Positions 29,557-35,215 of a DNA stretch of 64,000 nucleotides are shown piece by piece. Both the position numbers and the translations under genes were made by a program. Source of the stretch: Hyphomicrobiales bacterium. GTDB lineage: Bacteria; Pseudomonadota; Alphaproteobacteria; Rhizobiales; Xanthobacteraceae. The stretch lies in assembly GCA_016185205.1 (NCBI GenBank), contig JACPOA010000112.1, forward strand, positions 62,001 to 126,000, read 5' to 3'. The first letter of the stretch is position 1. Every line of letters starts with the position of its first letter. The notes under the pieces are model-generated. The model did not search any database. It saw only the letters and a program-made list of their open reading frames with translations, and had not been told where the DNA came from.

Positions 29557-30351
29557 ATGCTGGTGGACAGCCACTGCCACCTGGATTTTCCGGATTTCGC
29601 CGCCGAGCTCGACGCGGTGGTGGAGCGAGCGCGGGCGGCCGGCATCGGACGCATGGTGACGATCTGCACGCGCGTGCGCCGGCACGCGCAGGTGCTGGCC
29701 ATCGCCGAGAAATTCCCCGACGTGTTCTGCTCGGTCGGCACGCATCCGCACAACGCCCATGAGGAACTCGACATCGGCGCGGCCGAGCTGATGGCGATCG
29801 CCCAGCATCCCAAAGTGGTGGCGATCGGCGAGGCCGGCCTCGATTATCACTACGACAACAGCCCGCGCGCCGCGCAGGAGCAGGGCTTGCGCGCGCACAT
29901 TGCTGTTTCACGTGAAACCGGCCTGCCGCTGGTCATCCATTCGCGCGAGGCCGATGCCGACATGGCGCGCATCTTGCGGGAAGAAACAGGGAAGGGCGCC
30001 TTCCCGGCCGTGCTGCATTGCTTCACCGGCGGGCGCGAATTGGCCTTCGCGGCCGTCGAATTGGGTCACTATGTCTCGTTCACCGGCATTCTGACCTTTA
30101 AAAACTCGCAGAATCTGCGCGATATCGCCGCCGCGCTGCCGGCCGAGCGCATTCTGGTCGAGACCGACGCGCCCTATCTGGCGCCCTTGCCGCATCGCGG
30201 CCGGCGCAACGAGCCGGCTTACGTGGTCGAGACCGCGCGTGTCTTGGCGGAAACGCGCGGAGTTTCGCCCGAAGAAATCGCGCGGCAGACGACGGCAAAC
30301 TTCTTTCAATTGTTCAACAAAGTGCCGCAAACCATTCCGGCCGCTGCATGA
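29557..30351 (+). CDS. tatD: TatD family DNase
   Basis: MLVDSHCHLDFPDF, VAIGEAGLDYHYDNSPRAAQEQ, ILVETDAPYLAPLPHRGRRNEPAYV. Confidence 0.93.
   Translation: MLVDSHCHLDFPDFAAELDAVVERARAAGIGRMVTICTRVRRHAQVLAIAEKFPDVFCSVGTHPHNAHEELDIGAAELMAIAQHPKVVAIGEAGLDYHYDNSPRAAQEQGLRAHIAVSRETGLPLVIHSREADADMARILREETGKGAFPAVLHCFTGGRELAFAAVELGHYVSFTGILTFKNSQNLRDIAAALPAERILVETDAPYLAPLPHRGRRNEPAYVVETARVLAETRGVSPEEIARQTTANFFQLFNKVPQTIPAAA
29904..29919. promoter_or_regulatory. Putative parS (ParB-binding centromere) site inside tatD
   Basis: TGTTTCACGTGAAACC; the core GTTTCACGTGAAAC is a perfect 14-bp palindrome and matches the consensus TGTTTCACGTGAAACA at 15/16. Confidence 0.85.
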
Positions 30352-31148
30352 GCCTGACCTTCACCATTCTCGGCTGCGGCTCGTCCATGGGCGTGCCGCG
30401 CGTCGCGCTCGGTTGGGGCCAATGCGACCCCAACAATCCGAAAAACCGCCGGCGGCGCTGCGCCTTATTGATTGAGCGCGCGCAGGGGCAAGGCAACGTG
30501 ACGCGCGTTCTGATCGACTGCACGCCCGATCTGCGCGAGCAGTTGCTCGATGCGCAGGTCGACTGGCTTGACGGCGTGCTGATCACCCATGAGCATGCCG
30601 ACCACACCCACGGCATCGACGACCTGCGGCCGCTGTTCGTGCACAAGCGCCGCCGCGTCGACATCTATCTCGACGAGGCGACCTCGCGCGCCATGCATGC
30701 CCGCTTCGGCTATTGCTTCATGACGCCGCCGGGCAGCGAATATCCGCCGATTGTAAGTGAGCACCGCCTCGAACCCGGCCGGCCGGTAACGATTAACGGG
30801 CAGGGCGGACCGATCGAGCTGCTGCCGATCCTGCAAAATCACGGCGACATCCCCTCGCTCGGCTTTCGCGTCGGCAACGTCGCCTACTCGGCCGACATCA
30901 AGGAATTGCCGCCGGAGAGCCTTGGGCTTATGGCCGGCCTCGAGGTCTGGATCGTCGACGCGCTGCGCAAGTCGCCGCATCCCAGCCACTTCAATCTCGC
31001 GGAGGCGCTGCATTGGATCGAGCGGGTCAAGCCGAAACGGGCGATCCTGACCAACCTGCATACCGACATGGATTACGCCGAGCTGTGCGCGACTTTGCCG
31101 CCCGGCATCGAGCCGGCTTACGATCGGATGCGTTTTTCCGTTGATTAA
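30348..31148 (+). CDS. MBL-fold metallo-hydrolase (PhnP-like)
   Basis: LGCGSSMGVPRVALGWGQCDPNNPKNRRRRCALLIE, ITHEHADHTHGIDDLRPL. Confidence 0.9.
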   Translation: MSLTFTILGCGSSMGVPRVALGWGQCDPNNPKNRRRRCALLIERAQGQGNVTRVLIDCTPDLREQLLDAQVDWLDGVLITHEHADHTHGIDDLRPLFVHKRRRVDIYLDEATSRAMHARFGYCFMTPPGSEYPPIVSEHRLEPGRPVTINGQGGPIELLPILQNHGDIPSLGFRVGNVAYSADIKELPPESLGLMAGLEVWIVDALRKSPHPSHFNLAEALHWIERVKPKRAILTNLHTDMDYAELCATLPPGIEPAYDRMRFSVD

Positions 31149-31597: not shown

Positions 31598-31780
31598 ACT
31601 GACGACCTTGCCTTCGGGCTTGCCGCCGGGTGGTTTTTTCTTTCGACCTCCCGGCGGTTTCTTTTTTTTCGATGCCCTTATGCTGGCGTCCATCTCTTTC
31701 GGATCGACGCCGATGAACCGTTCCAATGCCTCCCCGAACGGCATGTTGAGTTTCAGCGGCGCTTCGTTCTTGCGGGTCAT
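31559..31780 (-). CDS. Small basic IS-associated passenger protein
   Basis: 73 aa, overlaps the transposase stop by 4 nt; LNMPFGEALERFIGVDPKEMDASIRASKKKK. Confidence 0.65.
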   Translation of the reverse strand: MTRKNEAPLKLNMPFGEALERFIGVDPKEMDASIRASKKKKPPGGRKKKPPGGKPEGKVVSLRARRIRKLTGR

Positions 31781-32676
31781 GCGATCAGCGCCTTGTAGGT
31801 GAGGCGACCGTCGAGCCGGGAGATCATCTCAACGACTCGTCCGCCAGTTTCTACGGCGCGGCGATTGTAGCGCCAAGTCGCCTCTGAAATATACCGATGC
31901 AAATGTTTCGGGCTGACCCAGTGATGGATGCCGTAAATCTGGCGCTTGATGAGTGCCCATGCGCTTTCCATGCCGTTGACGTGCACGTAGCCGTTCGCAC
32001 TGTATTCGCCAGCCGAGTGATTGACCGAAGCATGCCAGAACCGCTGATTGAAGCGGCTGTAGCCGGTCCATTCGTCAGTCATCAGAACGGCACCCGGCTT
32101 CACATGGGCGATGATTTCGCTCTTAACGTCTTTCAGGCTATCGACCGGGTGAGCGCGCAATTCGCCGCCGCGCTCTAGCATCCCGAACACCACGACCTTT
32201 TTGTCCTTGCCGCGCTTGTTCGCGTGTTTGTTCTTTTCCTTGCCGCCGAAAAAGCTCTCATCGGCCTCGACGATGCCGCCAAGCTGGCGATTGAAAGACT
32301 GGGTACGGGCGGCATGGCGCAGCCGGTGCATCATGAACCATGCCGTCTTTTGCGTAACGCCGATGTCCGTGGAGAGGGTGGTGCTGGCGATGCCCTTGGG
32401 GTGGTTCGTGATGATCCAGATGGCGTAAAGCCACTTTTGGAGGGGGATTTTCGAGGCCTCGAAAACCGTCCCGAAGCGCAGGGAGAATTTCATGCGGCAT
32501 TCCGGGGCGGCGCATTTGAACTTGCGGCCACCCTCAAAATGGTAGAGTCGGTCACCTCCGCAATGGGGGCAAAACTCGCCATGCTTCCAGCGAATCGCCT
32601 TGAAATACTCGATGGCCGCGTCCTCATTAGGTATCGCCTGCATCATCTTGATAAGGCTTGTAAATTCAATGTTCAT
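31777..32676 (-). CDS. IS1595-family transposase (ISXO2-like)
   Basis: CPHCGGDRLYHFEGGRKFKCAAPECRMKFSLRFGTVFEASKIPLQKWLYAIW; IVEADESFFGGKEKNKH; VLMTDEWTGYSRF. Confidence 0.93.
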   Translation of the reverse strand: MNIEFTSLIKMMQAIPNEDAAIEYFKAIRWKHGEFCPHCGGDRLYHFEGGRKFKCAAPECRMKFSLRFGTVFEASKIPLQKWLYAIWIITNHPKGIASTTLSTDIGVTQKTAWFMMHRLRHAARTQSFNRQLGGIVEADESFFGGKEKNKHANKRGKDKKVVVFGMLERGGELRAHPVDSLKDVKSEIIAHVKPGAVLMTDEWTGYSRFNQRFWHASVNHSAGEYSANGYVHVNGMESAWALIKRQIYGIHHWVSPKHLHRYISEATWRYNRRAVETGGRVVEMISRLDGRLTYKALIA

Positions 32677-32958
32677 AATGGCCTCCTCAATCTCTAAAAA
32701 CTACTATATACCCTTATTTTGTCGTGGTCAAGTATGTATATAACCCCCATCGGATGGCTATTCGATCAATTTTATGAATAACTTAGATATGCCAATGATA
32801 TACATTGTCATCTTAAAGTAACGGCACCACCGAAGTCGCCCGCTTTGCCCTTCTAATAATATTCCATAATATGTCTTATGCGAATCCCGCTGCCGGGTCG
32901 CGGCCCGGGCCCGCCTTTGCTACGGTCGGCTTTTCACGCCCCATCCGAGCCCCACGCC

Positions 32959-33776
32959 GTGAAGCCCTCCCGAGACATTGCCCGCCTGATCGAGATCATG
33001 GCGGCGTTGCGCACGCCCGGCAGCGGCTGCCCCTGGGACCTCGAACAGGACTTCCGCAGCATCGCGCCCTATACGGTCGAGGAAGCCTACGAGGTCGCCG
33101 ACGCCATCGCCCGTGGCGACCTTGGCGACCTCAAGGACGAGCTGGGCGACCTGCTGCTGCAGGTCGTCTATCACGCCCGCATGGCCGAGGAGCAAGGCGC
33201 CTTTTCGTTTGCCGATGTGGTCGAAGGTATCACCGCCAAGATGATCCGCCGGCACCCGCACGTGTTCGCCGATGCCGAGGGGCAAACGGCCGAACATGTC
33301 AAAGGCCTGTGGGAGCGCATCAAGGCGGAGGAAAAAACAGAACGCGGCGCGGCGGCGCCGGGCGGTGCGCTCTCCGGCGTGCCGGTCGCCCTGCCCGCGC
33401 TGACCCGCGCCTTGAAGCTGCAGGACAAGGCCGGCCGCGTCGGCTTCGATTGGAACGACCCGCGCGCCGTGCTGGCCAAGATCCGCGAGGAAGCCGACGA
33501 GATCGAGGCCGAACTCGACAAAGCGGGGAAGATTTGGGCGCCGATCAAGCCAAAACGGCGGCCGAGGTCGGCGATCTGCTGTTTGCGGTGGTCAACCTCG
33601 CCCGCCATCTGGGCGCCAATCCGGAAGGCATTCTGCGCGACACCAATCGCAAATTCGAGCGCCGCTTCGCATCGATCGAGCGCGCGTTGGCTGCGCGTGG
33701 CAAGTCACCGAAGGACGCCAGCCTGGCCGAGATGGATGCGCTGTGGGACGAGGCCAAGGCGGCGGAGAAGCCGTAA
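32959..33776 (+). pseudogene. mazG: Nucleoside triphosphate pyrophosphohydrolase MazG, split by a single-base frameshift
   Basis: N-terminal part LIEIMAALRTPGSGCPWDLEQDF... in frame of ORF 32878; C-terminal part QAKTAAEVGDLLFAVVNLARHLGANPEGILRDTNRKFERRF in frame of ORF 32871; junction at GGGG 33525-33528. Confidence 0.85.
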
Positions 33777-33850
33777 TCTCTTCGGTGTCAGGGCCGGGCT
33801 TTTTGCTTTCTTTCCGTCTCCCACAAGGGAAACGCATTTGCCGCGCACCC

Positions 33851-35215
33851 TCACCCCCCGAACTTCGCCTTCAACCGCGCCGCCTTGTCGGCATCGGCGC
33901 GCACCGTCACCGCCAGCCGGCCATCCTCGCCCATCGCGCGCGCCAGCACTTCGGAATTGCGATAGAGCCAGCTCAGGCCGGCGCCGTCGGCCGGATCGAG
34001 CGACAATTCAAGCGTCAACCGGCTTTCGCCCAGGCGCGCTTCGATCGCCGCGATCAGGCGCTCTAACCCCTCGCCGCTCAAGGCCGACACCGCCACCGGC
34101 CGGCGCTCGGCCGCTTGCCGCTCGACCAGATTGAGCAGCCGCGCGCGACCTTCCGTGTCGAGCAGGTCGATCTTGTTCCAGACCTCGATCAGGCGGCGGT
34201 CGCTCGCTTCGATGCCGAGTTCGCCCAGCACCTTTTCGACGTCATGCAGTTGCGCGTCGGAATCCGCGTGCGACATGTCGCGTACGTGCAGGATGACGTC
34301 GGCCTCGATCACCTCTTCCAGCGTGGCGCGGAACGCCGCCACCAGCATGGTCGGCAGATCCGAGATGAAGCCGACCGTGTCCGACAAAATGATGCGGTTG
34401 CCGAGCGGCAGATCGATGGCGCGCAGCGTCGGATCGAGCGTGGCAAACAGCATGTCGGCCGACAGCACGCTAGCCGCGGTCATGCGGTTGAACAGCGTCG
34501 ACTTGCCGGCATTGGTGTAGCCGACCAGCGCCACGATCGGATAAGGCACGCGCTTGCGGCTGTCGCGATGCAGCTTGCGGGTCTTTTTGACCTTGTCGAG
34601 TTCGCCTTCGATTTTCGCGATGCGCTCTTCGATCACGCGGCGGTCGGCTTCCAGTTGCGTTTCGCCCGGACCGCCGAGAAAACCGAAGCCGCCGCGCTGG
34701 CGTTCCAGGTGGGTCCAGGCGCGCACCAGCCGCGTCTTCTGGTAATTGAGATGGGCATGCTCGACCTGCAGCGCGCCTTCCTTCGTGCGCGCGCGCCGGC
34801 CGAAGATTTCCAGGATCAAGCCGGTGCGATCGATGACTTTCGCGTTCCAGGCTTTCTCCAGATTGCGCTGCTGCACCGGCGAGACCGGGCAATCCATCAC
34901 CACGACCGAAGCCGACAGACTTTTCGTCAGCCCGGCGATCTCGTCGACCTTGCCTTTGCCGACATAGGTCGCGGGCCGGATATCGTTGAGCGTGACCAGT
35001 CCTGCTTGCACCACCTTGAGATCGATGGCGCGCGCAAGGCCGACGGCTTCCTCCAAGCGGGCTTCCGGCGAACGTGTGTCGACATGGGCGCGGCCAAGAT
35101 TTGCCCGCGCCGCCGCGTGCTTGAGCCATGGTTCGATGACGATAGCGCGGCCGCTTTCCGTGCCCAAGGTCGGGCTCAGAAGGTCCGTCTGCTCATCGCG
35201 ATCGCGTTGTTCCAA
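33851..35215 (-). CDS. hflX: GTPase HflX
   Basis: FGFLGGPGETQLEADRRVI, VALVGYTNAGKSTLFNRMT, LSDTVGFISDLPTMLVAAFRATLEEV. Confidence 0.95.
   Translation of the reverse strand: MEQRDRDEQTDLLSPTLGTESGRAIVIEPWLKHAAARANLGRAHVDTRSPEARLEEAVGLARAIDLKVVQAGLVTLNDIRPATYVGKGKVDEIAGLTKSLSASVVVMDCPVSPVQQRNLEKAWNAKVIDRTGLILEIFGRRARTKEGALQVEHAHLNYQKTRLVRAWTHLERQRGGFGFLGGPGETQLEADRRVIEERIAKIEGELDKVKKTRKLHRDSRKRVPYPIVALVGYTNAGKSTLFNRMTAASVLSADMLFATLDPTLRAIDLPLGNRIILSDTVGFISDLPTMLVAAFRATLEEVIEADVILHVRDMSHADSDAQLHDVEKVLGELGIEASDRRLIEVWNKIDLLDTEGRARLLNLVERQAAERRPVAVSALSGEGLERLIAAIEARLGESRLTLELSLDPADGAGLSWLYRNSEVLARAMGEDGRLAVTVRADADKAARLKAKFGG

Follow-up and report, generated by a model that had tools for sequence, protein, structure and literature searches.

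Why should an exact copy of parS, a chromosome-segregation sequence usually treated as a mark of the replication origin, lie inside the coding sequence of tatD? The question is raised by the 64-kb stretch of Hyphomicrobiales DNA analysed here (the window), which belongs to a fragmented assembly of 4.38 Mb in 112 contigs (genome G000). Considering the observed sequence and genomic position of the site, its lineage-specific change, its non-randomness and the clustering of such sites, we think it probable that ParB truly nucleates on this 14-mer and that the site is a recent addition to tatD at the chromosome terminus. It would be one of several secondary parS dispersed in the terminus region of this genus, in this case some 3 kb from dif.

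An exact parS core in the tatD reading frame

Scanning of the window with up to three mismatches returned a single match to the 16-bp palindromic consensus TGTTTCACGTGAAACA, namely the 16-mer TGTTTCACGTGAAACC at 29904-29919, with 0.05 matches expected from shuffling. It agrees with the consensus at 15 of 16 positions, and its 14-bp core GTTTCACGTGAAAC (29905-29918; a palindrome, with no strand) is exact. The host gene (29557-30351, plus strand), assigned to the TatD family of DNases from its translation and Pfam match (PF01026 TatD_DNase, 2.9e-89), reads the site as GCT GTT TCA CGT GAA ACC (A-V-S-R-E-T), with the core in the codons V-S-R-E-T. Scan and translation confirm the exact palindromic core, the consensus match and the in-frame reading described in a first-pass annotation of this DNA. 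That annotation had also called the codons of the site atypical of the surrounding genes, which holds for GTT (8.8% of Val codons in the window genes), TCA (5.7% of Ser) and CGT (8.9% of Arg) but not for GAA, a common codon (40% of Glu).

The whole genome contains five exact copies of the core and none of the reversed control pattern. Markov models of order 0-4 expect 0.005-0.009 exact copies per genome, which corresponds to P ~1e-7 for at least three extra copies. Two of the five are on contig C21 with a spacing of 2 kb, both adjoining parA and parB: one within rsmG/gidB, read in frame as T-P-V-S-R-E-T-L, and the other at the 5' end of mnmG/gidA. This is the usual layout: most of 61 relatives have exactly two exact parS, and those listed on one contig are spaced by about 2 kb. 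The tatD copy (C92:91905) is identical to the parAB-linked pair, so that the genome-wide scan relative to parAB bears out the earlier identification of the motif. A further exact parS is found 49 kb further along C92, where a short interval separates the divergent glnS and gltX, 10 bp ahead of the start of glnS (L173 10001-10014), and the fifth is located on contig C5 upstream of sspB.

Pfam analysis of the G000 ParB revealed the ParB_N, helix-turn-helix and C-terminal dimerisation domains. In an alignment with Caulobacter ParB, Arg at 173 and Gly at 201 (Caulobacter numbering) are kept, the residues tied to parS preference by Jalal et al. (PMC7383237). By our reading of this alignment, position 184 is Lys, a residue called permissive there (PMC7383237), which might aid acceptance of degenerate sites by the G000 protein. 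Judging from its sequence, the tatD 14-mer is very probably a ParB site.

Position beside a candidate dif at the terminus

The first-pass annotation had placed this segment near the origin. A search of the window with E. coli dif at up to three mismatches gave no match; a laxer scan (up to 7-8 mismatches), followed by confirmation through conservation, identified a 28-bp dif-like XerCD site, GATTCGCATAA-GACATA-TTATGGAATAT (11+6+11), at 32859-32886 on the minus strand. A dif site is where XerCD resolves linked sister chromosomes; this candidate dif lies 2.94 kb from the parS core and has CGCATAA and TTATG in common with E. coli dif. Among 110 Hyphomicrobiales tatD loci, 84 have dif 0.8-9 kb downstream of the tatD 3' end. 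The main text of the dif prediction paper contains no alphaproteobacterial dif.

Two finished relatives served as positional maps, with the G000 coordinates borrowed from their orthologues: G004, a single-contig genome of the same genus (4,517,519 bp), and G012 (5.594 Mb). On G004, dif is about 1 kb from tatD, and tatD (2.407 Mb) lies at ~0.98 of the distance from the parAB-linked parS pair (0.199-0.201 Mb) to its antipode; the corresponding value on G012 (parS at 4.034 Mb, tatD at 1.062 Mb) is 0.94. A complete Shinella chromosome (3.48 Mb) has parS at 0.037 Mb and tatD at ~1.87 Mb. The skew between G and C (GC skew) on G004 is mainly positive from 0.2 to 2.38 Mb and mainly negative beyond, with the flip at 2.38-2.40 Mb. 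Since tatD is near the candidate dif, at the skew switch on G004 and nearly opposite the parAB-linked parS in relatives, the site is at the terminus, and the origin-proximal placement is contradicted. That tatD holds a canonical parS close to the origin, or that a chromosomal rearrangement has moved this contig to the vicinity of oriC, would suit the exact parS sequence and the usual clustering of parS near oriC. We consider either very improbable in view of the neighbouring dif, the order queA-tatD-glnS, which equals that of the G004 terminus, the location of the parAB pair on the separate contig C21, and the skew in the window itself, which passes from weakly positive to weakly negative values at about 24-32 kb. 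Proximity to oriC or parAB, the usual though not strictly defining attribute of parS, is not found for the tatD site.

The region between tatD and dif holds a metallo-beta-lactamase (MBL)-fold hydrolase gene (30348-31148, plus strand; Pfam Lactamase_B_2) and an IS1595-type transposase (31777-32676, minus strand; Pfam DDE_Tnp_IS1595, 8.5e-39). Owing to this insertion, ~180 bp from dif, the tatD-dif gap is 2.5 kb, compared with ~0.9-1.0 kb in most other members of the genus. On the far side of dif lies a mazG-type nucleotide pyrophosphohydrolase open reading frame (32878-34134, plus strand; Pfam MazG, 1.7e-29), which as listed overlaps dif and whose start codon is uncertain. The gene order tatD-MBL-dif-mazG is conserved across Hyphomicrobiales, making tatD a handy terminus marker in this order.

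Probable turnover within tatD and extra sites across the genus

Conservation of the 16-mer in close relatives, by which the first-pass annotation had proposed to judge the site, was not found in the 110 Hyphomicrobiales tatD loci and their 1.57 Mb of surrounding DNA, where matches were kept at up to two mismatches. The six codons encode A-A-A-R-x-T (consensus AAARET) in nearly all of the 109 other tatD genes, with G or C in third position, and exact parS occurs at these codons in G000 only. A one-mismatch copy, GCTTCACGTGAAAC, occupies the same codons in G064, and otherwise the motif is absent at this position. The sister species of G000, G029, reads CAG GCA GCG CGC GAA ACC there, with 5 of the 14 bases different. 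The two sister tatD genes are 89% identical at the nucleotide level, and the parS region is their most divergent 21-nt window, with 10 differences, a number reached in such a window in 69 of 5000 codon permutations. Two near-invariant alanines have been turned into Val-Ser in G000, as the palindrome requires; this replacement, in the most divergent window of the gene, supports the earlier suggestion of selection on the DNA over the protein.

The G029 gene has a one-mismatch site of its own, GTTTCACGGGAAAC, at nt 706 of tatD, read G-V-S-R-E-T where G000 has G-V-S-P-E-E. The sites of G000, G029 and G064 are the sole matches in the 1.57 Mb. In a poorly resolved tatD tree, G000 and G029 are joined with full support and G064 does not group with them. 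With another parS-like site present in tatD of the sister species, non-conservation becomes an argument for turnover of sites under selection in this region. A need for some ParB site in the region, satisfied at varying positions, would explain the tatD pattern better than inheritance of one site, and the tatD parS seems to have been selected there recently. A chance match without binding or selection would agree with the absence of the motif from G029 at this position, but not with five exact copies, the low probability of at least three extra ones and the repeated matches in tatD, and we give it almost no credence. Chance origin was rejected by the Markov expectation and the reversed-pattern controls.

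Across 44 genomes of the genus, 127 matches were obtained at up to one mismatch, ~88 of them attributable to the parAB-linked pair, against 6 for the reversed control pattern. Extra sites lie in or next to tatD in three species (G000, G029, G064), and in or next to dnaE (G018, G027), valS and ppx (G018), lpxB (G024), queA (G019), proS (G036) and glnS/gltX (G000), among others; G000 and G018 each have three extra exact parS. In unrelated proteins, many of the coding copies give V-S-R-E-T or I-S-R-E-T, and LpxB of G024 has I-V-S-R-E-T-P where G000 has L-L-A-E-R-V-G. The V/I-S-R-E-T reading is seen in ValS, LpxB, QueA, ProS and Ppx, and F-H-V-K in DnaE (L194, L196, L199, L202, L235, L237). Such coding footprints of parS could reveal embedded sites from protein sequence.

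These locations also bear on whether the palindrome is instead an operator that shares the parS motif but belongs to another DNA-binding protein (a transcription factor or ParB paralogue, for instance). Weak ParB/KorB-like matches are present elsewhere in G000, and some of the extra sites lie between genes (glnS/gltX, upstream of sspB), as an operator might. However, the tatD motif is identical to the origin parS, and several sites lie deep in unrelated coding genes (tatD, dnaE, valS, lpxB, queA), unlike an operator, which makes this explanation improbable.

The extra parS-like sites of the genus concentrate within ~230 kb of dif, in genes that differ by species. With extra loci mapped on G004 (two of them on G012) and unmappable accessory loci left out, 9 of 19 distinct mapped loci fall inside a 230-kb radius around dif, where 1.9 would be expected (P 4e-5), as do 5 of the 7 exact-only loci (P 2e-4), P values that are only indicative owing to the post hoc radius, the borrowed positions and the exclusion of the accessory loci. 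A Kolmogorov-Smirnov test, which uses no radius, gives P 0.001 for the terminus bias.

Away from the terminus, a parS-like site upstream of sspB was observed at 0-1 mismatch in G000, G033, G036 and G019 and at two mismatches in G029 and G023. In these six species it lies ~0.5-0.6 kb from sspB (L001 1501-1514; L234, L236, L238, L290, L291), mid-arm at ~0.5-0.57 of the ori-ter distance, and it represents a conserved distal parS candidate. An exact site in G064 adjoins a gene resembling the flank of the G033 site, and is therefore probably at the same locus. G012 has two one-mismatch parS 126 bp apart near recA (L245 5583-5596 and 5709-5722), ~0.65 of the way toward the terminus. A GTTTCCCGTGAAAC site of G027 is found within a phage-like gene cluster (L232 6001-6014); prophages may carry parS-like sites.

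The distribution of the sites can also be read as that of tolerated bystanders, which bind ParB without function: new parS would arise by mutation or copying, be purged mid-arm where harmful, and persist at a permissive origin and terminus. In Caulobacter, transposon sequencing showed ectopic parS to be disfavoured in mid-arm positions, whereas the vicinity of ori and the ~100 kb next to ter tolerate it (PMC5815017), and the sites described here are poorly conserved between species. Against this, an exact 14-mer has very little chance of arising neutrally at the Markov expectation, yet two genomes have three extra exact sites each and tatD carries sites in three species. Moreover, six species retain the sspB-upstream site, with 0-2 mismatches, at a comparable position. 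We regard mere tolerance as unlikely; the repeated tatD matches and the amino-acid replacements favour selection.

Possible roles at the terminus and relation to known systems

If the tatD parS nucleates ParB, as we favour, ParB dimers would load there as CTP (cytidine triphosphate) clamps, slide several kb and cover dif, as at ori-proximal parS. The likely outcome would be that SMC is loaded locally and/or that ParB serves MipZ as a platform at the terminus, the last point of sister-chromosome contact before division; ParB binding and spreading, and any consequence for how the terminus segregates or when the cell divides, are what we infer. MipZ is a ParB-dependent FtsZ inhibitor of Alphaproteobacteria, and G000 has a homologue on contig C25 (L319 258-1175; Pfam MipZ, 6.9e-115). 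A wider proposal, possible but doubtful, is that the terminus in this genus bears its own evolving set of parS around dif, and that ParB, with MipZ and/or SMC, acts at both chromosome ends and marks terminus DNA that has yet to segregate, holding back division or dimer resolution. Single sites would then turn over as the region keeps its ParB recruitment.

Several points weigh against a functional nucleation site in tatD. The exact site, a predicted ParB target, is found in this species only, and several of the one-mismatch sites may be chance. The 230-kb radius was set after seeing the data, and the positions were read off the orthologues of two finished relatives. Distal parS predicted in P. 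aeruginosa proved largely unoccupied in vivo, and a far parS could not be propagated there (PMC5098823); in B. subtilis, a parS close to the terminus does harm by impairing segregation. Terminus parS is reported as harmful in these two bacteria, while Caulobacter is reported to tolerate it. An exact parS occurring naturally 3 kb from dif, together with repeated, independent parS-like sites in the same gene of relatives, makes a terminus role of ParB directly testable, with SMC loading, MipZ-based division timing and dimer resolution as candidates, and offers a comparative example of new centromere sites arising and moving inside coding genes. An open-access literature search, not exhaustive, found no report of a natural chromosomal parS adjacent to the terminus or dif.

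Compared to the alphaproteobacterial parS linked to rsmG/gidB and mnmG/gidA, the tatD site has the same 14-bp core, and the gidB copy is likewise read in frame as V-S-R-E-T; the tatD site, however, lies at dif and not beside parAB, and occurs in one species with near-matches in two others. In Caulobacter, parS inserted at ter recruits ParB, and a new SMC-type alignment diagonal arises (PMC5583512). These engineered sites (PMC5583512, PMC5815017) are likewise near the terminus of an alphaproteobacterial chromosome, but the tatD site is natural, single and intragenic and less than 3 kb from dif. Noc and its binding sites (NBS) in Firmicutes also represent ParB-family sites away from oriC, and the G029 site joins a parS half to an NBS-like half. 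Identity as a Noc binding site was rejected for the tatD site, which differs from the NBS TATTTCCCGGGAAATA in having the parS G1/A6 positions, with R173/G201 in the ParB of this genome; Noc is restricted to Firmicutes (PMC7383237). Finally, the predicted distal parS and half-parS of P. aeruginosa are likewise scattered away from oriC, whereas the distal sites described here are exact and concentrated around dif.
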